Shown: positions 12,540 to 27,685, counted from the first letter of the stretch. The stretch is DNA of 33,048 nt from Patescibacteria group bacterium (GCA_018826445.1 JAHKBB010000027.1:1-33048); one strand, 5' to 3'. Translations and numbers: made by a program. The notes: generated from the sequence alone by a model not told the origin.

Positions 12540-15215
12540 TCAGTACATCACATCCAGTCGTCCTGTGTTTGTGTTGCCGAGATAGAAGTGGAAATTTAAC
12601 GTCATTCCGATTCTTGTGGCGGTGAAATCTTTATTATCGTTGCTGTCGATTTTGTAGCCGAGAGCTTCCAAAGCGGTTATTGTTTTTTCGATGTCATCTT
12701 CTGTGACGAGCCGGTTAAATCTGTACGCGACCCATCCGCTGACATCGTTGTCCCATAACTTTACTTCGTTCTCGAATACTTCCTTTAGAATTGGCATTAA
12801 TTCATCATTAACTATTATTCCTTTTTCAGTTGCGGCTTCAATTTCTATTGTTTCGTCGTACTTCATTTGAGGACGTGTTTTTGTGACGGGGGGTGCGCCA
12901 CTACCACCAGTAAAACTATCTGTGGTTTCCGCATGGCAAAGTTGTGTCTTGTATGTGGAAGGTTCCGAAGCGGTTGTGTTCACACCATCTTTATTGGTTA
13001 TGTGAGCCGTTCTAATGGTATTGCTCATTGGATATTCCACTACCAATTCCGGTGAGCTTAAATCGTTGGCAACAACATAAACACTGACATCACTTGATTC
13101 GGTGTCGCTAAAATCCGCGATGAGGCCGTTGTCGTTTCCCAAATTTCCGTTGGCGTCCAATTTCATAATCATCGCTTCGGTATATTCCAACCATGTTCCT
13201 AAGACCTTGCGTTTAATTCCGGTGTGCCATGTTCCCGCTATTGCGTAGCCGGAATCGGTGGTTGGAATTATGTCGTAGCCGTTCAAATCTTTCATTCCAC
13301 CGATAGTTTTCCCCCACTGGTAATTGAAATTTTTGTCCAGTTTTACTAATACAATGTTTTTAGCCCTAAAGGGGGCTGATGTTTCTTCAATAGTGTCAGC
13401 AATTATCTCCATGTCTCTTTTGGACGCCGAAGTTTCGGGGCTTCCAAGAGGGTATCTTTTGTTGTATTCATTTATCATTTCCTCATATGTTTTATTCCGC
13501 TCGCTGATTTGTTGATCTTCAAGACTGATAGCGGTGATATTTCCCATGATGATGTACCCGCCATCGGAGGTTTTTTTCATTACAATGTCTCCTAAAAACC
13601 TTTTTATTTTAATGATTCTTGCCCACTGAAATTTGCCTTCCGAGTTCACTTTGGCGCCTACCAAAGACGATTCTTTAAAAGCTCCCTCTACTCCTTTGGC
13701 AATTTCGGCATCTGATAAAATGGAAAAATAACTTCCAAGGGCGATGTAACCGCCGTCCGAAGTCTGCTCCGCCGTGATGAATTGCCCAAATCCCACGTGG
13801 AATTTATTCGGGGTTCCCACCGTGAAGCTTTTTCCGTCCGGGTTCATTATCAAATTCGGAATTTCGATTGGCACATTTTCCAGTCCGGTGGCCCACTCAA
13901 ATTCTCCATTCTTATCTAATTTAACGAGAGCGGGGACTTTCTGATCGTTTTCTTCTACAAGTTTGACATTGCCGATCAAAATATAACCGCCATCCGAAGT
14001 TTGTCTCATGGACTTGGCCATCTTGTCATCACCTTCGATTTTTTTGAGCCAATTGGTTTCACCGTCGGTAGAAAAGTTTCCAAGAAATAGAGTGTCCTGT
14101 ACGTCTGCTACATCTACCTGTCCGACCAAAACTCCCGTCGCTCCGGACATCACGAATCCCCCGTCTTTGGTGGGTAAAAGTTTTGCGGGGGTGTCTGTGC
14201 TTTGTTGGCTTACTGTTCTTGTCCAGATCCGATTTCCGTTGCCATCAAGTTTTACCACAAAATTATCGCCCTGTGCCTCAAGCGCTTCCTCTTCTTCATC
14301 CGTCATGAACTCGCCGCTGATTTCTCCGGCCGCAACGATACTCCCATCAGTCAGCTGAGTGATAGCGTAGCCATCTGAACTGCAATTATGAAACATTTTG
14401 CTCCATTCTTTATTCCCATTGCTGTCAGCTTTGATCCAAAACATACTCATGCCACACAGTTCGATAGGGGTCCAAGTGCTCCCCGTGATGGCATATCTGC
14501 CATCTGAAGTTTGAACTATACTAAAAGAATCAGAATTGTCTTTGAGGCGGTACGATTTTATGAATGTTGTTGTTTGGAAAGTTTCCGTGTCTCCGGAGAA
14601 GAAACTCATTGAACTTTTGTCTGTAATATCTTCTTTCAATCTATAAATCATTTCCGCCATTTCTCCACGCGAAATGTTTTTTGAAATAGAGTGGATAGTG
14701 CCGGGGACTGCTTTGAACTCTTCCAATTTCTCTACAAACGGTTGATACCAAATATTTTTTGCGGGGACTTTGTAACCAAAAGCGTTCACGATAATTTTCG
14801 AAGCCTCGGCAAAATTTATATAATTCCCGGGTTTAAAAGAACCATCAGGATAACCGCTTATAATTCCGTTATTGGAAGCCGCGCAAATATATGGGTAAAA
14901 CCAGTCGCTTTGGGATACATCGGGGAAGGTTTTGTTTGGTGCGCATCCCGAAATTTGATCTTCGGCAAAAATCGCACCGATAATAATTTTTACAAATTCA
15001 GCACGATTAATTCGGCTATCCGGTTTATAAGTTCCATCTGCATATCCGTTTACAATGCCTTGTGATCGCACATAATCCACAGCGTCAAAAAATGGACTAT
15101 TTGCACTCAAGTCCGAAAATCCCGCATCAGTATCAGCATATACGGGAATTAAATTCACAAAGAAGAAGAGTGTGGCCAAAATGGACGTAATAAAAAAGAG
15201 TTTTTTATAAGACAT
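12540..15215 (-). CDS. Surface protein: three SLH domains plus seven-bladed propeller
   Basis: The 891-residue protein begins with a signal peptide (SYKKLFFITSILATLFFFVN...VYADT, cleavage near residue 28). Three S-layer-homology segments follow: FSDLSANSPFFDAVDYV with NGYADGTYKPDSRINRAE, FPDVSQSDWFYPYI with SGYPDGSFKPGNYINFAE, and a diverged third ending ISRGEMAEMIYRL. SLH domains anchor proteins to cell-wall polymers. The next approximately 480 residues contain seven repeats built on the pattern TSDGGYxxxG, giving a likely seven-bladed beta-propeller. The last 170 residues, including a TGGSGAPPVTKTR linker, are unrecognised. The function is probably structural or adhesive. A TAGGA lies 10 bases before the ATG. 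The cysteine-rich gene lies upstream, 91 bp away. Confidence 0.85.
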   Translation of the reverse strand: MSYKKLFFITSILATLFFFVNLIPVYADTDAGFSDLSANSPFFDAVDYVRSQGIVNGYADGTYKPDSRINRAEFVKIIIGAIFAEDQISGCAPNKTFPDVSQSDWFYPYICAASNNGIISGYPDGSFKPGNYINFAEASKIIVNAFGYKVPAKNIWYQPFVEKLEEFKAVPGTIHSISKNISRGEMAEMIYRLKEDITDKSSMSFFSGDTETFQTTTFIKSYRLKDNSDSFSIVQTSDGRYAITGSTWTPIELCGMSMFWIKADSNGNKEWSKMFHNCSSDGYAITQLTDGSIVAAGEISGEFMTDEEEEALEAQGDNFVVKLDGNGNRIWTRTVSQQSTDTPAKLLPTKDGGFVMSGATGVLVGQVDVADVQDTLFLGNFSTDGETNWLKKIEGDDKMAKSMRQTSDGGYILIGNVKLVEENDQKVPALVKLDKNGEFEWATGLENVPIEIPNLIMNPDGKSFTVGTPNKFHVGFGQFITAEQTSDGGYIALGSYFSILSDAEIAKGVEGAFKESSLVGAKVNSEGKFQWARIIKIKRFLGDIVMKKTSDGGYIIMGNITAISLEDQQISERNKTYEEMINEYNKRYPLGSPETSASKRDMEIIADTIEETSAPFRAKNIVLVKLDKNFNYQWGKTIGGMKDLNGYDIIPTTDSGYAIAGTWHTGIKRKVLGTWLEYTEAMIMKLDANGNLGNDNGLIADFSDTESSDVSVYVVANDLSSPELVVEYPMSNTIRTAHITNKDGVNTTASEPSTYKTQLCHAETTDSFTGGSGAPPVTKTRPQMKYDETIEIEAATEKGIIVNDELMPILKEVFENEVKLWDNDVSGWVAYRFNRLVTEDDIEKTITALEALGYKIDSNDNKDFTATRIGMTLNFHFYLGNTNTGRLDVMY

Positions 15216-15306: not shown

Positions 15307-16275
15307 TTATCTTGAATAATACAATTCCGCCAGCGTATCCTCGTACTTGTACGTTGAGGGGAAGTTTATCTGGTTCCAAACGCTTGCCGCGAGCATTTCC
15401 TGCTTTATTTCCTCGAATTTTTTGAAGTATTCTTCGGGCGAGTATTTTTGGTTGAGAATTTCGTATTCGGCGTGATTTTGGGAGACGCATAGCAGGCAGT
15501 GTCTGGAATTCCAAATTTGTTCGCTGTGATATATGTCGCTTGAGAACCAGACTATGCATGAATTTTGGACGTTTTGGATACCGCTGCATCCGATAGAATT
15601 GTAGATAACTTCTGAGGGGTTTGCGGCTATACATTCGATATCAACTCCGTCTTTTACGTTGTTTATATGCCTGAGTGTGTAGATACAGTCTTCGGAATTT
15701 TTTGCGGCTGAGCTGTAGAATACATTTTTGCAATGCCTTAGATCCGGGCCGATGCAATTTTCACAATTTTTTTGAAAAACCGCGCGCTGGGGGTGTTTTT
15801 GCCTAACTTTTATCAATTCTTCCAGCAGTTTTTCTATGGAATATTTGTCTAAAAGTTCTCTTTTCTTCTTTTTGTATTCTTCTTCCGTTAATTTTTCATT
15901 GGCGATGCAATGTGAGGTGTTTTGCATTCCGGTGCAGAGGAAGCAATTTGTGCAATTTGACATGTCCCAGCAAAAATCGCAGTCACTGCACGCTATGAGA
16001 TAGCTTCCGTGCGTGCAGTTGTAGCATTTCTCGCACAAGATACATTCGTACATGAGTTCGCTGTGTTCAATGTCTTCGCAGTCGGTGCAATCTGTGTTTT
16101 TCACACTGTATCCGAGATAGTAGCAATCTTCTGAGTAGTGGATTCCAAAGCAGAAATAGCAGTTTCTGTTAAATGAACAGTAGTTTGTGAAGTCACTGTT
16201 TTCCGAATTTACGCACGTGAGGGCCAGGCGCGGACTTTCCTTTTGAAGTTTTTTATATTCTTCGAGAAACCACAT
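15307..16275 (-). CDS. Cysteine-rich repeat protein, CPR-type
   Basis: The 322-residue protein has 27 cysteines, 18 of them within residues 21-123, mostly as CxxC pairs in semi-regular repeats with aromatics (NCYFCF, DCYYLGY, CEKCYNC, CSDCDFC, CTNCFLC). A charged helical segment (about 128-165) separates a second, sparser cysteine repeat (NCENC, HCKNV, EDCIY, HCLLC). A similar family with an extra N-terminal zinc ribbon is, to my memory, widespread in CPR genomes with no known function; this copy lacks that ribbon. It probably binds several metal ions, likely zinc, in a solenoid-like fold. No signal peptide. A TGA six codons upstream fixes the start near 16275. Confidence 0.72.
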   Translation of the reverse strand: MWFLEEYKKLQKESPRLALTCVNSENSDFTNYCSFNRNCYFCFGIHYSEDCYYLGYSVKNTDCTDCEDIEHSELMYECILCEKCYNCTHGSYLIACSDCDFCWDMSNCTNCFLCTGMQNTSHCIANEKLTEEEYKKKKRELLDKYSIEKLLEELIKVRQKHPQRAVFQKNCENCIGPDLRHCKNVFYSSAAKNSEDCIYTLRHINNVKDGVDIECIAANPSEVIYNSIGCSGIQNVQNSCIVWFSSDIYHSEQIWNSRHCLLCVSQNHAEYEILNQKYSPEEYFKKFEEIKQEMLAASVWNQINFPSTYKYEDTLAELYYSR

Positions 16276-16339: not shown

Positions 16340-17359
16340 CTATAGATAATATTTTGTGTATCTATTTTTACATGGGGCTCCATGGCAGACCATCATCCAT
16401 TTTTCTTCCGGATTCATAATGGCTGAAGCAATAGTAAAGTTCGAATTCGAGTGTTTGCCCTTGTGCGAGCATATTCCGGATTTGTGATCTTTGAGGATTT
16501 TTTTCAGTATATCAATGTTGATTTTTGGCGTTGCAGAGAGAGTCTTATTGGCGTATTCATACCTTTTTACGGATTCTTTTGGTGTGTTTTCTCTGTTTTG
16601 GTATTTATGTTCCAAGGGATGATTGGTGTGGATAAGCCATTTGTTGCTGTGGAACACTTCGTGATGACACCATAGTGTTTCGATATCCTCTATGGTTTCG
16701 TCTTCTGCCAGTAATGTGTTTGCACAGATGCTGGCCCAAGGATCTTTTATCAATCTTCTTGCCTCCTTGATATCTCTAGCTTCCAGTAATTGCCTGAGAA
16801 GGAAGATTCTTGGTATTCCGAGACGGAAGCGTTTGTAATCCAGCGAATTAACCGTAAAACAAACTCCTCGATTATTGATGCCGCAGGCGGTTCCCGGGAG
16901 GGACCCCATATAGCTAAGCGCCAGAAAAGAATGTGAATTGATATGAGCCTCCACGAGATATGTTCCATTTGTCCAGTATTCTTCCATCCAGTCGTCATTG
17001 TGACCAATAAGAATTTGTCCATCCCCCGTGTGTACGGCAATGCTTGTGCAGTGGGGAATGTAATAATCGAGAATTTCTTCCTCGCAATTCAGCACCAATA
17101 ATTCATCAAAGGAAACTCCCGCTCCCTTACTCATGCATTTCAGTTCCTTTAAGAGATTTGGAAATTCTTTTTTAATGGCTGGAAGGAATTTTTTTGCATC
17201 CTTTATAAGAATGTCGAAATCTTTTGCGCCTCTTTTTTTGTATGCTATTTTGTTCGCTTTAATGCGTGACGCAATTTTTTTTGATAAAGCTTTACCTAAT
17301 TGATACCCAAAATCTTCGTGGTTTTTAGCGTAAACTTTGATAAATGGTATTTTTTTCAT
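16340..17359 (-). CDS. C45-family Ntn hydrolase (penicillin/isopenicillin-N acyltransferase-like)
   Basis: The 339-residue protein resembles acyl-CoA:6-aminopenicillanic-acid acyltransferase-type enzymes. An N-terminal about 103-residue segment ends in IPHCTSIAV. In this family the precursor cleaves itself before that cysteine (C104), which becomes the N-terminal nucleophile. Matching blocks are ILIGHNDDW and SYMGSLPGTACGINNRGVCFTVNSL, then a C-terminal NFTIASAIMNPEEKWM. Relatives hydrolyse or transfer acyl groups on amides and peptides. It is the last gene of the seven-gene unit; its ATG overlaps the stop of the decarboxylase gene as ATGA. In context it may add or remove an acyl or peptide group from the pathway product (inference). 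No signal peptide. Confidence 0.82.
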   Translation of the reverse strand: MKKIPFIKVYAKNHEDFGYQLGKALSKKIASRIKANKIAYKKRGAKDFDILIKDAKKFLPAIKKEFPNLLKELKCMSKGAGVSFDELLVLNCEEEILDYYIPHCTSIAVHTGDGQILIGHNDDWMEEYWTNGTYLVEAHINSHSFLALSYMGSLPGTACGINNRGVCFTVNSLDYKRFRLGIPRIFLLRQLLEARDIKEARRLIKDPWASICANTLLAEDETIEDIETLWCHHEVFHSNKWLIHTNHPLEHKYQNRENTPKESVKRYEYANKTLSATPKINIDILKKILKDHKSGICSHKGKHSNSNFTIASAIMNPEEKWMMVCHGAPCKNRYTKYYL

Positions 17360-18648
17360 GAAAGGTTGTAAACTTTTGGAATATCTTTAATGAATTCTTG
17401 AGCCAGTGTGTACGTATATGCGCCCTGGAACGGAATTAAGAGTATGTCGCCGAGAGCTGCTTTCCCCCCGTAAACGTAGTATCCCCAGATGTCGTCAGGG
17501 GTGCAGAGAGATCCGTATACGACGAATGGTTTTTCGTGTTTCAGGTCAAATTGACTCAGGTTGATCAGCGGGACATAATAGAAGAACTGGTATTTTTCCC
17601 AGCCGACAATATTGGTCCCGCCGTCTGTAATCCCGAAGGTGGTTTTCCCTGTTCCTTTGATGTCTATGATTTTCAGCAGAATATGCATTGAAGTATGGCT
17701 GACGAATCGCCCCGGTTCGGCATAAAGCTGAATTGCCGGCAGTATTGGCAGGACTTCTTTTTTATAAACTTCACAGATTTTTTTCACGACTGTTTCTATC
17801 GGGGTTACTTTCACGGGTATGTAACGCTTTTTGAATTTGTCTTTTACAATTTTGTCCATTAGATTTCCTTCATCGAAAATGTTCATTTCATCTTTTTTGT
17901 TCCACGTGTATTTTCCTTCAAAACTTTCAGGGTAATAGCCGCCTCCCATGTCGATGTATTCGAATTTTTCTCTTTCCTTCGCGCTGAAGTTTGTTTTTAC
18001 ATATCTCGCCACCTCTTTGAGAGTTTTAAGATACGGATCCGGTTTTTTGTTCATACTTATGTGGAAATGTATGCCGCAGAATTTTATTGATTTGTATTTT
18101 TTCGCTTCGTTAAAAAAGTTTTTCAACTGTTCGAGGGGCATCCCGAATTTTGTCCATCCTTTCTGCATTTTCGTGTAAACTCTTGCTCCGCATCTCATTG
18201 TTATGTTTCTTTTTGCCGCCATTTTCGCTAAAAGTTCCAGCTCGCGTTTACTCTCGAGATTTACTGTGATTTTTGAATAATGTTTCAAAATCAACTCAAA
18301 ATCCTTTTCTGTTTTTGCCGGTCCGGTATATATGATTTGTTTCGCTCCGGCTTTTATGGCGAGTTCCAACTCGCGCTTGCTTGAAGCGTCCAGATTTCCT
18401 CCGTTTTTGACGACTGTTTTTAAAAGATCTATGTAATAGTTGCTTTTTATGGCGTAAAAAACATTGACATCCACTTTGTTTTTTTTGAATTCACCGGTGA
18501 ATTTCTTTAGATTCTCCTTAATTTCGTTTCCATCAAAGACAAAGAGAGGAGTTCCTTTCGTTTTTGCGATCTTTTGGAGAACCGGTCTCAGCTTGCTGAT
18601 TTTTTGAAAATATTTTTTGGATCCCGGCAGGTTTTCTTGTTTTTGCAT
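17356..18648 (-). CDS. Fold-type III PLP decarboxylase (Orn/DAP/Arg decarboxylase family)
   Basis: The 430-residue protein has the alanine-racemase-like barrel with the PLP lysine in FYAIKSNY (K68). HFHIS follows at 194-198, the glycine-rich phosphate loop YIDMGGGYYP at 231-240, AEPGRF at 310-315, the C-terminal cysteine of the active site in GSLCTPDD (C382), and GAYTYT at 409-414. Family members decarboxylate meso-DAP, ornithine, arginine, carboxynorspermidine or carrier-bound glutamate. GAYT is more ornithine-decarboxylase-like than DAP-decarboxylase-like, and the substrate is undecided. An ordinary lysine-biosynthesis role is not supported by the neighbours. It starts 7 bp after the ATP-grasp gene and overlaps the C45 gene by 4 bp. 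Confidence 0.85.
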   Translation of the reverse strand: MQKQENLPGSKKYFQKISKLRPVLQKIAKTKGTPLFVFDGNEIKENLKKFTGEFKKNKVDVNVFYAIKSNYYIDLLKTVVKNGGNLDASSKRELELAIKAGAKQIIYTGPAKTEKDFELILKHYSKITVNLESKRELELLAKMAAKRNITMRCGARVYTKMQKGWTKFGMPLEQLKNFFNEAKKYKSIKFCGIHFHISMNKKPDPYLKTLKEVARYVKTNFSAKEREKFEYIDMGGGYYPESFEGKYTWNKKDEMNIFDEGNLMDKIVKDKFKKRYIPVKVTPIETVVKKICEVYKKEVLPILPAIQLYAEPGRFVSHTSMHILLKIIDIKGTGKTTFGITDGGTNIVGWEKYQFFYYVPLINLSQFDLKHEKPFVVYGSLCTPDDIWGYYVYGGKAALGDILLIPFQGAYTYTLAQEFIKDIPKVYNLS

Positions 18649-18655
18649 GTTTACG

Positions 18656-19930
18656 CTATTCTAGCAAAATAATTTCTTTTTTAAAGTGATTATAAATGTA
18701 TTTCCCGTCTTTGTTTAGTTTTCCCGTGCTGATATCAAAAAGGGGCTTGTTGCTGATGATTGTGCATAAAGTGGTGGTGCGACATGAGGATTTTTTACCT
18801 GACAGTTCGTTGAAAAGGAGGAAATTATCGTTTTTCCCGCGCATGTCTCTGATTGAGCGGCTCACGAATTTTATTTTCTTGTTCTTGTATGTATATACTC
18901 CAACTTTTGGAATATTTTTTATATTAACTTTCCCTTTGGCGTCGATGTCCAGGAGACATCCGCGGAATGAGTGTCTTGGCAATTCTCCGTTTTGAATCTC
19001 CGGGTTTTTTTCTCCGTTGAAGGCGTTTATGATGAATGACCATACGTTTTTTGAGCCGCACAGATTTGGTATGGAGAAGAGATGTTGGGTTGCCGATGAC
19101 ATTCTCGGATTGCATTCGATAACATACGGCTTGTTATTGTGCAGAATGAAGTCTATATTTGCCACTCCGATGAATTTTTCTTTGATCAATGTTTTTGTGA
19201 GTTTTTCGAGTACCTTGTTTATTTCCTTTATTGTCTTTGCTGGGAAAGACCCATGTGGAATCCATTGAATTCCGAGGAATACGTGCGGGAACCCGTTTTT
19301 ATACTCGAAACATTGGCGCCGCATGCCGGAGAAAAAATAGTTTTTATCTTTATCCATAAATATGCTTACTCCTATGGACATTCCGTCCAAGTATTCTCTC
19401 AAGATAAGATTCCTCTTTTGAAATTTATATGTCTTAATCGCATCTGTTAATTCACGTCGATTTTGGCAGAATTTTGTGCCAAACATTCCAAAACTGGAGG
19501 CTTCTTGCAATACGCACTGCCGCGATGTTTTTTTATTCAATTTCAGGGTTTTGGGGGAAGGAATTTTGTTTTTTTTGAGGAGTTTGTCGAAGTACAGTTT
19601 ATTTTCTAGTCTTTTTTGCTGTCTCAGCTCTGTTACGAGCGGTTTAATGTTGTTTTTTTTACACCATTTATCTATTTCTTCCGATGTTCTGTGTGGAATG
19701 AAGAGATATTTTATATTATTTTTTTTCAATATTGTTGCAAAAGCCTCTATTTTGATAGCACTTTTTATATCGGCTTTGTTCAATATAATGAGCTGATCTT
19801 TATTGAAGTTGTTTTTTGCAAAAATTTTACAGTTTGTGTCCTTTTGTACTATTACGAATAGGTTCTTTTTGTGTTTCTTTTCTAGGAAAACGGGGTCGAT
19901 GCTGTTTATAAATACTGCGATTTTGTTCAT
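18656..19930 (-). CDS. ATP-grasp ligase (second in the operon)
   Basis: The 424-residue protein has the ATP-grasp layout: an N-terminal Rossmann-like half, then NKLYFDKLLKKNKIPSPKTL (110-129), REYLDGMSIGVSIF (178-191), GVANIDFIL (255-263) and IECNPRMSS (271-279), where E272 and N274 are the expected Mg ligands. Such enzymes join a carboxylate to an amine or thiol via acyl-phosphate. The usual lysine of the first ATP-binding strand (KPxxG) is replaced by Q142 in VLQEASSFGMFG, so nucleotide binding may be altered. The start overlaps the DegT-like gene as ATGA. In context it may attach one amino acid to a peptide or amine intermediate, which is an inference. Confidence 0.8.
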   Translation of the reverse strand: MNKIAVFINSIDPVFLEKKHKKNLFVIVQKDTNCKIFAKNNFNKDQLIILNKADIKSAIKIEAFATILKKNNIKYLFIPHRTSEEIDKWCKKNNIKPLVTELRQQKRLENKLYFDKLLKKNKIPSPKTLKLNKKTSRQCVLQEASSFGMFGTKFCQNRRELTDAIKTYKFQKRNLILREYLDGMSIGVSIFMDKDKNYFFSGMRRQCFEYKNGFPHVFLGIQWIPHGSFPAKTIKEINKVLEKLTKTLIKEKFIGVANIDFILHNNKPYVIECNPRMSSATQHLFSIPNLCGSKNVWSFIINAFNGEKNPEIQNGELPRHSFRGCLLDIDAKGKVNIKNIPKVGVYTYKNKKIKFVSRSIRDMRGKNDNFLLFNELSGKKSSCRTTTLCTIISNKPLFDISTGKLNKDGKYIYNHFKKEIILLE

Positions 19931-21039
19931 TTTAAAAACTTAATTATTGTGTCGGACATAAAATCAACGTCGGTTTTTTTTACGGACCACGACAACGGCA
20001 GTATTACGAGTGACTCAAACAGTTTTTTATTTGCGTGTTCATACGACTCAAAGTCCAGGTCGTTTGGGTCCCACAATTTGTCCGCATATATCCCGTGTAA
20101 ACTTAAATATTCTATGAGTGCGTCTATATGGTTTTTGTTGACTATGACCGGATAGTAGCATAGCTCGGATGATTGTATGAGTTTATCTTCCAACACGGTG
20201 ACGATCGGACTTTTTATTTCTTTAAGTTTCGAATTGTAATATAAAGCGAGTTCTTTTTTGTGCTTTTTTATTTTTTCTGCGTCCAAGAGGTTGTACATGT
20301 GATAGCTGTAGAAGCTTCCGAGCGTCGGCTTCGGCGATTTCGATCCTATAACTTTGTCCAGCCGCAGAAATATTTTTTCGCTCAATACATATAGCTTTGG
20401 CGATCTGAATATCAGCGAAGCAAGTTCCAATAAGTTCCTGGATGTCTGCAGTAGGCCGCATCTTATTTTGTACGAGTTCATTTTCTCCACGGTATTTTTT
20501 TTGTAAGAGAAATTATCCGAGAATATATGCGAACCTAAAAGTGAGCGGTGCTTTCTTACACTGTCCACATAAAGACGATTTTTGGAGGACTGGATTATTT
20601 TTGATTTATCTATGATTCTATGTGCGTAGTCCTCGATGATTATTGTTGATTCGCCGCAAAGTGAATCGAGTTTTTCTTGTTCCGCCTTGTTCAGTGAAAA
20701 TCCCAGAAATGTGTAATTTAATATTACTCTCGGGTTGTGTTTTCTGATCTGTTCGAAGTAGTCATCTTTGTTTAAGGTGAAATCGTCGTTTATCTTGTAA
20801 AATTTCACGTTTAAATACTCCTTTATTATTTTCAAGGTGTCAGGACAATAGAAATTTGGCATTAAAATTGTCTCGTTTTTCTCCGTGAGACTGTGGCTCT
20901 CGAAAATGCATTTCAGGGAGTCCGAAAAGGACATGAAAAAATTTGCCCTTTTGCGTTTAGGATGGGATTTTCCCCCTGCGCGGAAACTTAGAGGTTGTGC
21001 CAAAAGTGGTTTAACAAATGTTATGAGACGTCTATGCAT
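19927..21039 (-). CDS. DegT/DnrJ/EryC1-like PLP-dependent protein
   Basis: The 370-residue protein has the fold-type I aminotransferase layout of the DegT family: NFYCPDTLKIIKEY near 62-75, IIIEDYAHRIID at 133-144 (D137 expected to contact the PLP nitrogen), and DSVRKHRSLLGSHIF at 159-173. K163 is the candidate Schiff-base lysine, matching the SxRK variant of the family. Relatives transaminate keto-sugars, but some act on non-sugar substrates. The surroundings here (ligases, epimerases, decarboxylase) suggest an amino-acid-derived substrate. The N-terminus is Arg/Lys-rich. It starts 5 bp after the epimerase gene and ends overlapping the next ATP-grasp gene. Family is likely; reaction unknown. 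Confidence 0.68.
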   Translation of the reverse strand: MHRRLITFVKPLLAQPLSFRAGGKSHPKRKRANFFMSFSDSLKCIFESHSLTEKNETILMPNFYCPDTLKIIKEYLNVKFYKINDDFTLNKDDYFEQIRKHNPRVILNYTFLGFSLNKAEQEKLDSLCGESTIIIEDYAHRIIDKSKIIQSSKNRLYVDSVRKHRSLLGSHIFSDNFSYKKNTVEKMNSYKIRCGLLQTSRNLLELASLIFRSPKLYVLSEKIFLRLDKVIGSKSPKPTLGSFYSYHMYNLLDAEKIKKHKKELALYYNSKLKEIKSPIVTVLEDKLIQSSELCYYPVIVNKNHIDALIEYLSLHGIYADKLWDPNDLDFESYEHANKKLFESLVILPLSWSVKKTDVDFMSDTIIKFLK

Positions 21040-21044
21040 ATCGG

Positions 21045-22091
21045 CTATTTCAGTTTAAGTTCTTTTTCTATTGTTATATATCCTTTTTCGACTTTTATTC
21101 CTCCCGTTGCCGGGTCATCATGGAAATCCAGATTTCCACTGTCGAGATCCACGTAATCAATCGGCAGTGCAAGGGCTAGGTTTGCCGCTGTTGTAAGCGA
21201 TATATTCGACTCGTACATACATCCGATCACTATTATTTTGTTTAAGCTTTTTGCGAGTTTGTAGATTTTGATAAAGTCCAGAGGGCCGCCGCATTTCGTT
21301 AATTTTATATTCACGCCGCTCACGTAGTTTCCTTTTATCAGTTTGATCGCGTCATTCACTGTCACGATGGATTCGTCGGCTACAACCGGTATGCTTTTTA
21401 GCAGATTTAATTTTTTCAGGCCTTCGAGATCGCCGCTTTTCACGGGTTGTTCTATCAGCGCTATTTTTTCGTTTTTCAACGATTCCAATAAATGCTCCGC
21501 TTCTTTTAACGAATATCCTTGGTTCGCGTCCAAAATCATTTCACAATCATCAGGGAGTATTTTGCTTACTGCGCGAATTCTTTCTATGTCGCCTTCTACA
21601 TCAAGGCCGCATTTCAATTTGATGATTTTGAATCCTTCGAGCAGTCTTTTTTTTACTTCGTCGATTGTGCTGTTTTTATCTTCTATTCCAATTGTGATCA
21701 TTGTACGGCACTTTTCTCTGTGTTTTCCAAACAAATCCCGCATGTGCATTTTGTGGCGCTTACAAAACAAGTTCAGAACTGCTTCTTCCACTGCCGCTCT
21801 GGCTGAAGGAAATGAACGGAATGTTTTTTTAATTTTCTTGTGATATTCGCGCCATTTTTCGATATCGAGATCAAAAAAATCTTTCGTTAATTCTTTCTTC
21901 AGGATTTTATACACGCTCTCTATTGTTTCTCCGGTTACTTCCGTGTCCGGTGACGCGCTTCCCATTCCTTGGAGTCCGTCGTCGTCTGTTATTTTTACGA
22001 GAATAATTTCCGCCGTATCAACGCTTTCATAACTGATGGTGAAGCGTTTGTGGAAATGAAGTGTTTTTTTTGAAATTTCTATGGATTTCAT
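21045..22091 (-). CDS. Enolase-superfamily dipeptide-epimerase-like enzyme
   Basis: The 348-residue protein (ATG at 22091) follows the muconate-lactonizing/L-Ala-D/L-Glu epimerase pattern. The KxK base is K158-L-K160 in IKLKCG; metal ligands are D188 in DANQGY, E214 in EQP and D239 in ADES. The second base K263 is in NIKLTKCGG. The end carries DLDSGNLDFHDDP with the D-x-D typical of dipeptide epimerases. These enzymes invert the alpha carbon of the C-terminal residue of dipeptides. The start is placed at the ATG that overlaps the previous TGA by one base (TGATG), not the ATG 75 bases upstream inside that gene. The exact dipeptide is not predictable. Confidence 0.87.
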   Translation of the reverse strand: MKSIEISKKTLHFHKRFTISYESVDTAEIILVKITDDDGLQGMGSASPDTEVTGETIESVYKILKKELTKDFFDLDIEKWREYHKKIKKTFRSFPSARAAVEEAVLNLFCKRHKMHMRDLFGKHREKCRTMITIGIEDKNSTIDEVKKRLLEGFKIIKLKCGLDVEGDIERIRAVSKILPDDCEMILDANQGYSLKEAEHLLESLKNEKIALIEQPVKSGDLEGLKKLNLLKSIPVVADESIVTVNDAIKLIKGNYVSGVNIKLTKCGGPLDFIKIYKLAKSLNKIIVIGCMYESNISLTTAANLALALPIDYVDLDSGNLDFHDDPATGGIKVEKGYITIEKELKLK

Positions 22092-23464
22092 CAGATATTT
22101 AGGCTTAATTCCTTCTTGTAAATTTTCAGGAGATTTTTCTTGTATTCTTTCGGAATATTTGGACATTCGTTTATGCCGAGGTATTGTTTTGCGTAGGCTT
22201 TTCTGTTTTTCCGAAAGCGGGGGAGGAGTGTTTTTTTGAATTTTTCCATGCTGTAGCCTTTAAATCCGTTCAGAAATGACAAATAGAATGCCAATCCCAA
22301 TTCCTCCTGTGAGCCGTATGCCGGCGCTTTCGGATTATAGTTGAAGAAATGGTCGTATATTTTGCTATGTTTTTTGTCGAATAAGTTTTCGGTAAATCCT
22401 ATCTTTTTCAAATCCAAATTAAAGGCGCAGCACAATGCATAAATATATCCGCATTTCACGCACTTTTGACACCATCGGTTGTTTTTTGCGTTTTTATTGT
22501 CGGCCATGCAGGACATTTGATACTTGCCGTCTTCCGGATATCTCGTGTGAAGAATTTTATTTATTGCTATTTCGTAAAGTGATTCCATGAAACTCACGAC
22601 TTCTATTCTCCTGCCCAATATAAGTGATGCCAAGAGTCCCTGTTGGGGTGTCCAATCCGAGTGCTGGTCGTAGGCGGCTTTATATGACAACATTCCTTCT
22701 TTGTCGAAGAATATGTCGTTGCATGACTGTTCATTGCCGAGGACGATATAACCCGCGTTAAAATATTCGGCAAACGGCAGACTCATAAGCGCGTATTCCG
22801 TTGTTTGAAGTCCCCATCCCAGTTCTGTGTTCAGGCTCCAATACTTTCCGTACCTTAGAATTCCCGGGTCATATTGAACCGTGTAAACTCTCGTTTTCAT
22901 TTCATTTTCGAATTTTTTGATCAGGTTTCTCTTATGGAAATACTCGTATTTATTTGATGGTTCTATAAAATTGACCAGTATGGGTGTTATGCCAATTTCT
23001 TTGCACAAGCTGAAACTGAGCATACTTTCCTTACCAAATGAAAAGGGGACTATCGCTGTCTTTTTTGTTCCCACCTTTGTTTTTCGCTGTGTAGGGATGG
23101 AAATTTTATTTTTTTCGTGGATTGGCCTGGTGTTGAAAAAGTTCTTCACGTAATTGAGGGATGATTTGTTGTCTGTAATTGCGCAAATCGGCATGTCGTA
23201 TATTCCGTTCTTAAACAAAAATGTTTCGGAAATCGGGCGGGCCGTCTTGTAATGAATCTCGTGCAGTCCAAACATTTGTGGAACAAACATGGTTGAGCTG
23301 TATGCGATATTTTCCGCCAAAACCCGCTTGAGTGTTTTGTCGTACTTCTCCCATATCTTTGCCGGGTAAATTATTTTGAAGCAATCGTTGTTCAGCATGA
23401 TGTCGATTCCTTCCTTCGTAATTTTCGCATCAACTTCCAAACTGCTCGGTTTTATCTTACTCAT
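22091..23464 (-). CDS. PP-loop ATPase resembling MurL-type glutamate epimerase
   Basis: The 457-residue protein has an adenylating PP-loop variant, VPFSFGKESMLSFSLCKEIG (139-158). GNEQSCND follows at 243-250, YKAAYDQHSDW at 261-271, and a cysteine cluster (C319, C332, C335, C338 in WCQKCVKC) that could bind zinc. From memory, this combination resembles MurL, which activates UDP-MurNAc-L-Ala-L-Glu with ATP and epimerises the terminal L-Glu to D-Glu; I could not verify the match. PP-loop tRNA-modifying enzymes are an alternative. The start overlaps the preceding gene by 8 bp, and the stop overlaps the dipeptide-epimerase start. The pairing with a second epimerase favours a peptide substrate over tRNA. 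Confidence 0.62.
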   Translation of the reverse strand: MSKIKPSSLEVDAKITKEGIDIMLNNDCFKIIYPAKIWEKYDKTLKRVLAENIAYSSTMFVPQMFGLHEIHYKTARPISETFLFKNGIYDMPICAITDNKSSLNYVKNFFNTRPIHEKNKISIPTQRKTKVGTKKTAIVPFSFGKESMLSFSLCKEIGITPILVNFIEPSNKYEYFHKRNLIKKFENEMKTRVYTVQYDPGILRYGKYWSLNTELGWGLQTTEYALMSLPFAEYFNAGYIVLGNEQSCNDIFFDKEGMLSYKAAYDQHSDWTPQQGLLASLILGRRIEVVSFMESLYEIAINKILHTRYPEDGKYQMSCMADNKNAKNNRWCQKCVKCGYIYALCCAFNLDLKKIGFTENLFDKKHSKIYDHFFNYNPKAPAYGSQEELGLAFYLSFLNGFKGYSMEKFKKTLLPRFRKNRKAYAKQYLGINECPNIPKEYKKNLLKIYKKELSLNI

Positions 23465-25853
23465 ACTGCAAATGATAAAATGGGGGATGATCTTTGTATC
23501 TCTGCACCGCTGTTAAAATTATTTCTTCCAGGAATTCCTCGTAATCGTATCCGGCGAGTTTTGCCGCCAGCGGCAAAAAGTCATGTTTTCTTATCGATGG
23601 ATTCGGATTTAGTTCGAGGACAAACGGGTTTCCGTTTTTGTCTATTCTCATTTCTATTTTTGTGTAATCCCTGCAGTCGAAGATGTTGAAAATGTCCAGC
23701 GCCATTTCGCTTATCAGTGTATCTAGTTTTTGAGGTATTCTTGCCGGTTTTTCGATTCTGATCAGGTTTAGTGCTTTCCTATGCTCGATTTCATATATTT
23801 CCGATGAGTATATATGCCAGTATCCTTTTGGGACTTTGTCAAAGATGGATCGGATTAATGGCAAGACCTCCGCCTCTTCGCCATTTCCAATGACGGAAAC
23901 GTCGATTTCGTCTCCCTCTATGTATTCTTCTATCAGGGCCGGTTTTTGCAATTTCTCAATTATAATTTTTAGCTGTTTTGCTAACTCGCGTTTGTTTGTG
24001 ACAATTGAGTTGTTGTTTATTCCGAAATGATTGTCCGAGTTTGCCGGCTTCACAATTAGCGGGTAGCAAAGATCGTCATTTACTTCTTCGTCCAAAGATT
24101 CTATATAATCCCATTCCGGTGTCGGAATGGCGTGATATTCCAGTAACTTTTTTACTTTTACTTTATCCGTGGCGAGTGACAATGTCCCCGCTGTTGATCC
24201 CGTATAAGGAATTTGCATCATGTCCAGGAAGTCGGCTGCGTAGGCTTTCATTATTGTTGATCCCGACTTGGCGTCTGTCAGGTTTATTACAAAATCCAGA
24301 TTCGCGTCTTGTATATTTTTTATTGGGAATGGGAGTTCGCTTATGTCGAATAAGCTTATTGAATATCCGAGTGATGAGAGGGCGTTTTTAACCTCTTCTC
24401 CTCCCGGGATGTCATTTGTTAAGAGGCCTATGTGCAATTTTTTTACTGCGTTGAGATTTACCGATCTTATTTTTACCATTTTCGATGCTCTGAGAATTTG
24501 GTTTCTTACTATGGACGCGTTGTCCAGTGGCGATGATGTTTTTCCCAAAGAAGAATCTTTGTGGAATTTTGTAACATTAACTTCTACCGTTTCCATGATT
24601 CTATTCAAGAGCACTTCTCCGTCTTGATGAGTCCTTCCTTTTACTACTGCCCATCCCGCCGTTTCGAACCCTTCCGGGGGGACTAAAATGGCGTCCCCGA
24701 CATTTTTGTGGATTGTTACCTGCATCACGTTTTTCATTGCTTTCGCTTCTTTTACATTCTGGATTTGAGTTACCACGCCTGACGATTTTGGAACGAAGTA
24801 TCTGCCTATTGTGCAGCCTTTCGGGTCTTTTTTACACGGTTTCACGATTTGTTTTGTCGCTATTTTTATACCGATTTCCACCATGTCCACTCCCCATATT
24901 TCTTTTATGTTGTCATAGATATAGTCTCCTCCCATTCTGGACGCGATTTCGACTATTTTGGGACCGGTCGGAGTGATTCTGATTTCGGTGTGAGACAGGC
25001 TGTTTGTCACTCCCAATGCTATAAGCGACGATTCCGTCAGTTTGACAATCTCGTCCTGGGTTTTCGGATCTATTCTTGCCGGGATAACATCTCCGTATTC
25101 AAGGAAGTATGGCGGTTTTGACGCCTGTTTTTCGTGTATTCCTATTACGTGAGGTATTCCATACTGTGAAAACCCCTCAACGCTCACTTCGGTGCCGTCC
25201 ATGTATTCTTCGTACAAAAATGAATTGTCATTGTACTTGAAGATCGGATTGAATTGTTCGTTGCAGTTTTTGAAAAAGTAGTTAAGTGTGTTTTTTGCTT
25301 CTGTTTCATCTCTCACTAGAATTACAAATTCGCTGTCGGACCCCCATACAGGTTTCATCACTGCCGGAAATCCTATCTCTTCAATTGCTTTTTTGAGATC
25401 TCTGTGGGTTTTAATGAGATGGAATGCCGGGCATCCGAGACCGGTATCTTTCAGTCTTTTCCTCATTTCATATTTGTTTCGTGTGTTGATTGCCGTTTTG
25501 TAAGTGTTCCCGGTCAGATTGAATTCTTCACATACTCTCGCTAATAGCGGGACATCGTCTTCCCAAAAAGTAATGGCTCCGTCAAATGCCGTATCCGGGT
25601 TCTGTTTCAAAAAAGATTTTAGTTTTTCAATCACCTCGCTGTGGTTGTACGTATCAGCTTCAATAAACGATCCAGCGATATTTTTCCCACAATCGAGTTT
25701 TTTGTTTACGAGAATTGTATTAACCCCGAGTTTTTTCGCTCTCTCAAGCGTGAATTTCTTTTTCTTTCCCCCCGAGTTGATAAATATGATATTGCAATCG
25801 GCAAGATCCGGATTGTTTTTCATGGTTTTTTTTAGGTCGGTTTTAATATCCAC
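23457..25853 (-). CDS. Double ATP-grasp protein (amino-acid ligase + D-Ala-D-Ala-ligase-like)
   Basis: The 798-residue protein is two ATP-grasp enzymes fused. The first (about 20-430) has FPAVMKPVWGSDSEFV (162-177), YEEYMDGTEVSVEG (214-227) and VEIASRMGGDY (301-311), resembling BacD-type L-amino-acid ligases and carbamoyl-phosphate-synthase-like folds. The second (about 470-798) resembles D-Ala-D-Ala ligase: TGSTAGTLSLATDK (551-564), VKPANSDNHFGI (601-612), EEYIEGDEIDVSV (642-654) and ELNPNPSI (747-754). Both active sites look intact, so two peptide bonds could be formed in sequence. It opens the operon. The start may be the GTG at 25853 or the ATG at 25823; a -10-like TATAAA at 25958-25963 (minus) is a possible promoter. 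Confidence 0.83.
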   Translation of the reverse strand: MDIKTDLKKTMKNNPDLADCNIIFINSGGKKKKFTLERAKKLGVNTILVNKKLDCGKNIAGSFIEADTYNHSEVIEKLKSFLKQNPDTAFDGAITFWEDDVPLLARVCEEFNLTGNTYKTAINTRNKYEMRKRLKDTGLGCPAFHLIKTHRDLKKAIEEIGFPAVMKPVWGSDSEFVILVRDETEAKNTLNYFFKNCNEQFNPIFKYNDNSFLYEEYMDGTEVSVEGFSQYGIPHVIGIHEKQASKPPYFLEYGDVIPARIDPKTQDEIVKLTESSLIALGVTNSLSHTEIRITPTGPKIVEIASRMGGDYIYDNIKEIWGVDMVEIGIKIATKQIVKPCKKDPKGCTIGRYFVPKSSGVVTQIQNVKEAKAMKNVMQVTIHKNVGDAILVPPEGFETAGWAVVKGRTHQDGEVLLNRIMETVEVNVTKFHKDSSLGKTSSPLDNASIVRNQILRASKMVKIRSVNLNAVKKLHIGLLTNDIPGGEEVKNALSSLGYSISLFDISELPFPIKNIQDANLDFVINLTDAKSGSTIMKAYAADFLDMMQIPYTGSTAGTLSLATDKVKVKKLLEYHAIPTPEWDYIESLDEEVNDDLCYPLIVKPANSDNHFGINNNSIVTNKRELAKQLKIIIEKLQKPALIEEYIEGDEIDVSVIGNGEEAEVLPLIRSIFDKVPKGYWHIYSSEIYEIEHRKALNLIRIEKPARIPQKLDTLISEMALDIFNIFDCRDYTKIEMRIDKNGNPFVLELNPNPSIRKHDFLPLAAKLAGYDYEEFLEEIILTAVQRYKDHPPFYHLQYE

Positions 25854-26041: not shown

Positions 26042-27685
26042 ATGGGGGGACTTGTGGATCAAATTGCGCTTGCTGTAAAAACTGGGGCTGTTACGCCTGA
26101 AAATCCTCTGGGTTTTGAGGGTGATGATGTTAAGAAATTGTTGGATGAACTCACATACGGTTTTGCCGCTAAATTGCGTGATTGCGTAAGTGAACAATAT
26201 CCAAACGGCTTAATATTAACTTTTCACGGAGATGGTGTGCGTGTGGACGAAGAGGGTGGCCATATTGAGGTTGATGATATTGCGGATGAGGCCGGATCGT
26301 TTTTGCCGCGCCCCAATGCGGAAAATTTGCTGGGTGAGGAGGGGCTTGTTCTTCCGATCCCGGAAGATGTGATCAAAGAAATCAGAGTAAGAGTCGCGAA
26401 TGTCACTATGGGCGTACCCGTGGAATCGCGCTATGAGGATTTTAAACGTCTTGATGAGGATGGGCAATTGGGGTTTGGAGACAAAAAGCACGGACTGATT
26501 GTTACCGATAACATGATAATAGCCACGTGCAAGGATGGAAAATGGAGTGAAGCGATGGCGGTACCGTATTCGAAACTGAGTTTTTCTCCAAATATGCAGG
26601 CAATACATTATGGAAGTGCGTTGTTTGAAGGTATGACAGCGGAAATCGGAGTTGACGGAGAGATATATATTTACGGAATGAAACAGCATTATAAACGAAT
26701 GCGGCGTGGGATGCTGAAGCTCGGACTCGATATCGTGCCTTGGGAGTTGTTTGAAGAACCAATTATTGCGGGAGTACAGCAGAATGCGAGATTTATTCCG
26801 AGAAATGGGCGGCTTTATATTCGTCCGCATGTTGCGGATATCGGTCCGCACATGAGGGTCGGCAATTCGAGAGTCACCGGCTCTATGGTGGAGGTGACGC
26901 CGATAGGTTCGGTTGAAGCTTATTATGGAAGCCGGGAGGTCGATGAAAACGGTAATATACCTATGAGGGTATTGGGTGTTCCGGATAATAAAGTTCGGGC
27001 CGCCGCGGGTCAAGGCGACATCAAAGCCGCGGGCCATTATGCCCAGACCACGCCTGTAATTCATGCCGTTTGCGGCATGAACGCCGCCGAGGATGGAGCT
27101 CCTAAAATCTATCCCGACGGAGTTCTTTATCTAGACCGCGTTGTGGAAGGTTTTGAAAAAAGCGGCGAAAAGTTCAGAAATGCCCGAGTCTGTGAGACCA
27201 ACGCGTCAAATTCACTTTTCTTCCAGGATCTGGGTGGTGGACGATACAAAGTTATTGCTCCTTCTCTGAAACATGGCGATATTTTGCCGGGGAACACGCG
27301 GAAACTAATCTTGGAAAAAGCGGAAGGACTCGGGTGGGAGATAGAGGAACGTGATGTCACGGTTGGTGAAATTTTGGACGGAAAATTCGATGCCGCCGTA
27401 AATTGCGGAACCGCGGCAACACTTTCCACATTTGATGCTATTAGATTAGTCCATATTAATGAAGAAATAACACAAGACGATAAGGCGAATGTGACGGCGG
27501 AACCTCGAAGTAAATTGATCTATATCAGGAGTCAAGAAGCGGTGAATGAAAATCCAACTCCAAAGCCTGTCGAAATACTTTTAGAAGAGGTGCTTAAGGT
27601 GAAAACCGCGAACTGCTCGGACGAGGACAAGAAAAAATATTTAACACAGGTTCCCGGGCTTCGCTTGAAGAGGAAATCCGAATAA
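26042..27685 (+). CDS. Branched-chain-type (class IV) aminotransferase with N-terminal extension
   Basis: The last about 390 of 547 residues are a BCAT-family aminotransferase. SFSPNMQAIHYGSALFEGM ends at 198. The PLP lysine K328 is in GDIKAAGHYAQT, ETNASNSLFF begins at 385, and LPGNTRKLILEKA and NCGTAATLS follow. Members transaminate leucine, isoleucine and valine with 2-oxoglutarate; class IV also includes D-amino-acid aminotransferase and aminodeoxychorismate lyase, less likely here. About 160 extra residues precede the family start, not recognised and acidic. A comparable extension occurs on the Cys/Met enzyme at 5192. It is divergent from the seven-gene operon, so a supply role for that pathway is possible but not shown. 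Confidence 0.85.
   Translation: MGGLVDQIALAVKTGAVTPENPLGFEGDDVKKLLDELTYGFAAKLRDCVSEQYPNGLILTFHGDGVRVDEEGGHIEVDDIADEAGSFLPRPNAENLLGEEGLVLPIPEDVIKEIRVRVANVTMGVPVESRYEDFKRLDEDGQLGFGDKKHGLIVTDNMIIATCKDGKWSEAMAVPYSKLSFSPNMQAIHYGSALFEGMTAEIGVDGEIYIYGMKQHYKRMRRGMLKLGLDIVPWELFEEPIIAGVQQNARFIPRNGRLYIRPHVADIGPHMRVGNSRVTGSMVEVTPIGSVEAYYGSREVDENGNIPMRVLGVPDNKVRAAAGQGDIKAAGHYAQTTPVIHAVCGMNAAEDGAPKIYPDGVLYLDRVVEGFEKSGEKFRNARVCETNASNSLFFQDLGGGRYKVIAPSLKHGDILPGNTRKLILEKAEGLGWEIEERDVTVGEILDGKFDAAVNCGTAATLSTFDAIRLVHINEEITQDDKANVTAEPRSKLIYIRSQEAVNENPTPKPVEILLEEVLKVKTANCSDEDKKKYLTQVPGLRLKRKSE

Follow-up and report, generated by a model that had tools for sequence, protein, structure and literature searches.

Peptide pathways that use ATP-grasp ligases and no nonribosomal peptide synthetase (NRPS) are already known, as are the enzyme families that compose the locus described here. 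An engineered pair consisting of the ATP-grasp ligase TabS and a Thermotoga maritima dipeptide epimerase produces L-Cys-D-Val in vitro (PMC13338154). MurL, which has been described as lacking known conserved domains, uses one ATP, releases AMP, and inverts its substrate from L to D only (PMC8788868). Finally, FigC, SbnH, AcsE, MccE, and BtrK share a fold like that of diaminopimelate (DAP) decarboxylase (DAPDC) and act on a conjugated amino acid (PMC7857480). Here, we describe a run of seven genes, A to G, in a 33,048-nucleotide stretch of DNA (the window) from a Patescibacteria group bacterium (GCA_018826445.1 JAHKBB010000027.1:1-33048), which is contig C79 of a 1.05-Mb genome assembled in 148 contigs. 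We estimate a probability of about 55% that this locus is a member of a modular Patescibacterial family that relies on stand-alone ATP-grasp ligases, and not on an NRPS, to make a short peptide conjugate.

The seven genes lie co-directionally on the minus strand at positions 16340-25853, and all seven open reading frames (ORFs) were confirmed. From A to G they are joined by an 8-bp overlap read directly from the sequence (23457-23464), a TGATG in which C starts at ATG 22091, a 5-bp gap, an ATGA overlap, a 7-bp gap, and a second ATGA overlap. Inside the run, neither terminator-like nor promoter-like sites occurred above chance level, and GC content dipped only slightly, to 0.37-0.42, with no sharp break. 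Families were assigned with hidden Markov models (HMMs), while B and D, which have no Pfam match, were examined by predicted fold. The initial annotation, made from the sequence alone, had given the seven genes and their junctions correctly in every case, and its family assignments were borne out by HMM for A, C, E, F, and G and by fold for B and D.

Genes A to F recur together, in varying combinations, across Patescibacteria. A Peribacteraceae locus (L013) holds all six in unchanged order, as does a Falkowbacteria locus (L011) apart from a gene for an unknown 300-amino-acid (aa) protein inserted after B. Other loci hold A-B-E-F (L012 and L015), A-C-methyltransferase-B-D (L014/L053, one Andersenbacteria contig), A-B-C (L091), A-E-F (L096), A-B (L054 and L055), A-B-radical SAM-A (L057), or B alongside a split A, each half being a gene of its own (L058). 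In one genus within the window genome's order (L016, L094, and L095), A is followed by a second L-amino acid ligase (LAL), E, and F, with an opposite-strand gene between E and F; in L016, this gene is a GNAT by Pfam, and EamA and PAP2 genes follow F. Among a panel of 380 genomes, full-length A was present in 16 and cluster-type B in 10, and the 5 genomes with both carried them in the same cluster each time (hypergeometric P = 1.5e-5, with genomes treated as independent). Likewise, E always adjoins F or lies one gene away, the two standing together in 10/10 loci that hold a close E, and E matches above 300 bits were found in 5 of the 380 genomes, each with F and twice in genome G057. The recurrent modules are A+B, E+F, and A-B-C-D-E-F. 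Conservation of all seven genes in the same order, proposed in the initial annotation as a check, therefore holds for A to F in L013 and, allowing for one insertion, in L011; it does not extend to G, which was seen only in the window, and the seven-gene set is ruled out as a conserved unit. Nor did homologues prove to be scattered without co-occurrence, an outcome that had been named as counting against a dedicated pathway; they co-occur in clusters. The absence of transporters and extra pathway genes is true of the window cluster only, since relatives carry EamA, PAP2, nearby MATE, methyltransferase, radical-SAM, and GNAT genes and extra ligases.

Gene trees conflict with one another in ways that suggest that the clusters exchange parts. 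B and E of the window pair with those of the Falkowbacteria locus (support of 0.98 and 1.0), while A and F of the window fall with the L016/L012/L013 group and the Falkowbacteria A and F fall elsewhere (support of 0.94 to 1.0). The clusters appear to have been reassembled from exchanged genes, as is common in specialised-metabolite clusters. A mobile origin was rejected, given that B had no match in phage or plasmid records (tblastn) or in IMG/VR contigs (pattern scan) and that an integrase adjoins a single relative only (L058). A pattern-limited scan of genome contigs returned five matches, all of them Patescibacteria.

Gene A matches the HMMs Dala_Dala_lig_C, ATP-grasp_4, and LAL_C2. Its N-terminal half is an L-amino acid ligase of the BacD/BL00235 type, with ATP-grasp_4 and LAL_C2 over their Pfam cut-offs and a match of 183 bits to PDB 3vot. 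The C-terminal half is Ddl-like (124 bits to Ddl 3r23) and scores 170 bits against a curated D-Ala-D-Ala ligase cut-off of 243. Compared with the genome's own Ddl, this half has SDNHFG in place of the NLGSSVG loop and WHIY in place of the FYDY omega loop, and given the lack of these substrate motifs its specificity as a ligase probably differs. Homologues begin to align at about residue 11, which makes ATG 25823 a possible start of A in place of GTG 25853. In another genome (G015), three LAL-type ATP-grasp genes stand in tandem (L022:11189-15120).

No Pfam family covers gene B, whose AlphaFold model (predicted local distance difference test score [pLDDT] of 92) matches QueC and other PP-loop enzymes. 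The profile of B aligns with that of bona fide Patescibacterial MurL over 399 columns (hhalign probability of 99.8%, E value of 3e-28), and the two have in common the motifs GK[DE]S and NExS and a four-cysteine (Cys4) site, SC..WCxxCxKC. On the strength of these similarities, we propose that B uses ATP to drive epimerisation of the C-terminal residue of a peptide. MurL itself should, judging from its homology to B, have a QueC-like PP-loop fold, and the predicted fold with its Cys4 site would offer a testable basis for an enzyme without known domains. MurL is expected beside MurD or MurD2 in a genome without MurI; the window cluster has no Mur ligase, and MurI lies on contig C81. MurI, Mur ligases, and a canonical Ddl elsewhere in the genome, together with a low score on the MurL model, rule out B as this genome's MurL. 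Weak matches to B across the phylum were considered as further clusters and, in the three loci checked (L062, L063, and L065), proved to be true MurL next to MurD; such pairs are probably found in about 40 more of the 380 genomes. Elsewhere, two B paralogues on opposite strands overlap at their 3′ ends with no A gene nearby (L056:7967-10820).

Gene C carries every residue expected of a dipeptide epimerase, namely, the KxK motif, the D/E/D metal ligands, a second Lys, and DxD at strand 8. The corresponding positions (K183xK185, D213, E239, D264, K288, and D340xD342, numbered on the 373-aa ORF) are invariant in five homologues. The score of C against the dipeptide-epimerase equivalog model, 230 bits, is below the cut-off of 500. 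The protein has 348 aa from ATG 22091 and 373 aa from the first ATG of the ORF, 22166.

The partner of ligase E, gene F, was labelled a DAP-type decarboxylase in the initial annotation, which is too specific. F lacks the CE[ST]GD motif of DAP decarboxylases and scores 147 bits against a cut-off of 298 on TIGR01048, placing it outside LysA. Its catalytic loop reads CTPDD, where SbnH has CTPKD and FigC CMQHD, and an alanine-racemase fold with a Cys loop of non-DAPDC type groups it with FigC, SbnH, and BtrK at the level of motif and family rather than of a tree. We propose that F is a conjugate decarboxylase, acting on an amino acid that has already become part of a larger molecule. A distant E-like ATP-grasp gene is also found at L152:3013-14400 with a Ddl-like ATP-grasp, ATPgrasp_ST, 7TM-transglutaminase, MATCAP, and FGase, followed by a glycosyltransferase, in what appears from its gene content to be another peptide- or polymer-modifying operon.

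Gene D has no match in Pfam or NCBIfam. Its model (pLDDT of 82) is closest in Foldseek to PseC (2fnu, E value of 7e-11) and DegT (E value of about 1e-10), and an invariant Asp137 and Schiff-base Lys163 agree with pyridoxal 5′-phosphate (PLP) fold type I; we propose, from this predicted structure, that it is an aminotransferase. Homologues of D with about 21 to 23% identity occur outside any cluster (L106, L107, L108, and L109), and a more distant one (L112) lies beside a second gene with a possibly FemX-like start. The HCTS nucleophile motif of G aligns to the Cys of PDB 2x1d, consistent with membership of the C45/AAT family, and G may be autoproteolytic. G was not beside A to F in the other loci examined.

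Coordinates of the seven genes and their neighbors are given in Table 1. A 560-aa homologue of the neighboring gene H is encoded at L092:810-2492, about 6 kb from a B gene. The S-layer homology (SLH)-domain protein of the window is 64% identical over its C-terminal 138 residues to the product of an ORF that lies close to F in genome G033 (L016:4979-5395).

Table 1. Genes of the cluster and its flanks, with positions counted from the first nucleotide of the window
Feature	Position	Strand	Basis or remark
A, two fused ATP-grasp ligases	23457-25853	-	HMM, PDB matches, family alignment
B, divergent MurL homologue, PP-loop ATP pyrophosphatase	22091-23464	-	AlphaFold model, profile alignment, motifs
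C, enolase-superfamily dipeptide epimerase	21045-22091	-	MR_MLE HMM, PDB 3jva 174 bits, catalytic residues
D, very divergent DegT/DnrJ/EryC1-fold PLP enzyme	19927-21039	-	Predicted fold
E, ATP-grasp_3 ligase	18656-19930	-	HMM; distantly like carbamoyl-phosphate synthase
F, alanine-racemase-fold PLP decarboxylase	17356-18648	-	Orn_Arg_deC_N HMM
G, C45 (AAT-like) acyltransferase/amidohydrolase, N-terminal nucleophile	16340-17359	-	NF040521 193 bits vs cut-off 85
H, Cys-rich repeat protein, unrelated	15307-16275		64 bp beyond G
SLH-domain protein	12540-15215		3′ of cluster
Aminotransferase class IV gene	26042-27685	+	Divergently transcribed flank of cluster

We asked what these genes might make together. 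Dedicated ligases clustered with tailoring genes, and no NRPS or carrier protein seen, fit an NRPS-independent ATP-grasp pathway. From what was observed of the families and folds of the genes, their catalytic motifs, how they are conserved, and how modules are exchanged, we infer its substrates, step order, and product, for which the best reading is a short peptide with one or more D-residues and a decarboxylated end. The L-amino acid ligase half of A would join two L-amino acids, and C would invert the C-terminal residue of the free dipeptide, a combination that has an engineered precedent in TabS and the T. maritima epimerase (PMC13338154). B would likewise invert a C-terminal residue, driven by ATP and in one direction only, as MurL does, and the Ddl-like half of A would extend the peptide from the inverted residue. 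In the most economical form of the scheme, inversion falls to C, to B, or to both. The third ligase, E, would then link an amino acid by the carboxyl or amine of its side chain, so that the alpha-amino-acid head remains available for decarboxylation by F, as BtrK, SbnH, and FigC do on their conjugates. D may supply or aminate a building block, and G may transfer or remove an acyl group. Of the joining, inversion, decarboxylation, and acyl transfer put forward in the initial annotation, the first three, without ribosome or NRPS, are supported.

Several observations weigh against this pathway. C, D, E, F, and G are each absent from some clusters, so that no single fixed pathway can be drawn. Full-length A stands alone in several genomes (L017-L021, L093, L098, and L099), pointing to a role for the fused ligase that is independent of the cluster. 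Two epimerases in one pathway are redundant unless they act on different residues, and no transporter, immunity gene, or regulator was seen in the window cluster. The resemblance of B to MurL, correctly recognized at the outset, is also distant, with epimerase activity only predicted: B reaches 24.9 bits on the curated MurL model, whose equivalog cut-off is 700, while true MurL of other Patescibacteria, adjoining MurD genes, score 245 to 417 bits, also below that cut-off. Given this distance, and given one B relative that matches the PP-loop amidotransferase WbuX (32.6 bits), B could adenylate for amide formation instead of epimerising.

This last point leads to the alternative that fares best, in which B is a PP-loop amidotransferase or adenylating ligase that forms an amide, amidine, or similar group, and C alone carries out inversion. 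Adenylation is used for N-transfer in the QueC and WbuX families, QueC is the nearest solved fold to B, and some clusters do hold both B and C. However, the profile match to MurL is full length and includes the three common motifs, and most B-bearing clusters lack C, leading us to consider an amide-forming role somewhat unlikely. We regard as unlikely, too, that the peptide made by A, B, and their partners ends up on a surface polymer, lipid, or S-layer glycan instead of being released as a small metabolite. Such tailoring of the cell envelope would be in keeping with the SLH-domain protein 3′ of the window cluster and ORFs of SLH or related type close to A in L013, L016, and L019, with PAP2 after F in L016, with B relatives that adjoin Wzy- and polysaccharide-flippase-like genes (L059-L061), and with the company that distant E-like ATP-grasps keep in L152 (7TM-transglutaminase, ATPgrasp_ST, and glycosyltransferase). 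Nevertheless, the A-F clusters contain no glycosyltransferase or lipid carrier gene, SLH adjacency is inconsistent between clusters, and the tailoring genes vary as they do in specialised-metabolite clusters.

A polyamine or siderophore-like pathway, yielding a small amine conjugate with stereo-inversion incidental, seems quite improbable to us. F does resemble N-citrylornithine and N-citryl-Dap decarboxylases, and some loci have E and F but not B, C, or D (L016, L096, and L149), but no NRPS-independent siderophore synthetase gene was seen in the clusters. Moreover, the position that contacts the citryl group, a basic residue in SbnH (Lys) and FigC (His), is Asp, following CTP, in the window F and 4/5 homologues, which argues against citrate. 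An ordinary peptidoglycan role is ruled out by genes elsewhere in the genome: a MurI that scores over its cut-off, Mur ligases, and a canonical Ddl (motifs NLGSSVG and FYDY), whose contig also carries an adjacent fragment of an alanine racemase, make B dispensable for D-Glu and A for D-Ala-D-Ala. This argument assumes that the bin, with an estimated contamination of 6.9%, is mostly one genome. It is thus very improbable that ordinary peptidoglycan, lysine, or arginine genes were gathered here by chance, an objection foreseen in the initial annotation. The genes do belong to families like those of Ddl, MurL, LysA, and the Ala-Glu epimerase of muropeptide recycling, but the substrate motifs that would go with such roles are missing from A and F, and gene order is kept across distant lineages.

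We return to the short peptide conjugate as the preferred reading. Since the genomes of Patescibacteria are small and few metabolites are expected of these bacteria, a conserved, diversifying nonribosomal peptide pathway would suggest that they engage hosts or rivals in dedicated chemical interaction; MurL-type, ATP-driven epimerisation would moreover have a use outside peptidoglycan. We raise tentatively, and with more doubt than the reading itself, the possibility of an undescribed natural-product class across the phylum, in which ATP-grasp tri- or tetrapeptide conjugates are made with MurL-related one-way inversion and a conjugate decarboxylase, with modules swapped between lineages, and which perhaps act between epibionts and their hosts or rivals. 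The open-licence literature searched yielded no description of this combination with a MurL-type enzyme or of its occurrence across Patescibacteria.

Each of the closest known systems matches part of the locus. As in the MurD2-MurL branch of Xanthomonas and Micromonospora, in which an ATP-dependent ligase adds an L-residue that a MurL-family enzyme inverts, B is MurL-homologous over its length; however, the ligases here are ATP-grasp LAL and Ddl-like enzymes instead of Mur ligases, no UDP-MurNAc genes are present, B reaches 25 versus 700 bits on the MurL model, and the genome has MurI. Dipeptide pathways of the bacilysin and tabtoxin type (BacD, TabS, and BL00235) share with the locus an L-amino acid ligase with LAL_C2, in the N-terminal half of A, and the lack of an NRPS or carrier protein, but not the fusion to a Ddl-like ligase, the peptide epimerases, or the decarboxylase. 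The pairing of an ATP-grasp ligase with an alanine-racemase-fold decarboxylase in E and F recalls BtrJ-BtrK of butirosin, although no acyl carrier protein was seen in the window cluster and E is likened to BtrJ by this pairing. With FigC, SbnH, AcsE, MccE, and BtrK (PMC7857480), F shares a DAPDC-like fold and an altered catalytic-Cys loop (CTPDD in F and CTPKD in SbnH), while differing in its acidic residue at the ligand-contact position and in having no citrate, nucleotide, or carrier partner genes. Finally, C retains all the catalytic and DxD residues of T. maritima-type L-Ala-D/L-Glu epimerases, but it scores 230 versus 500 bits, and its neighbors are ligases instead of recycling genes.

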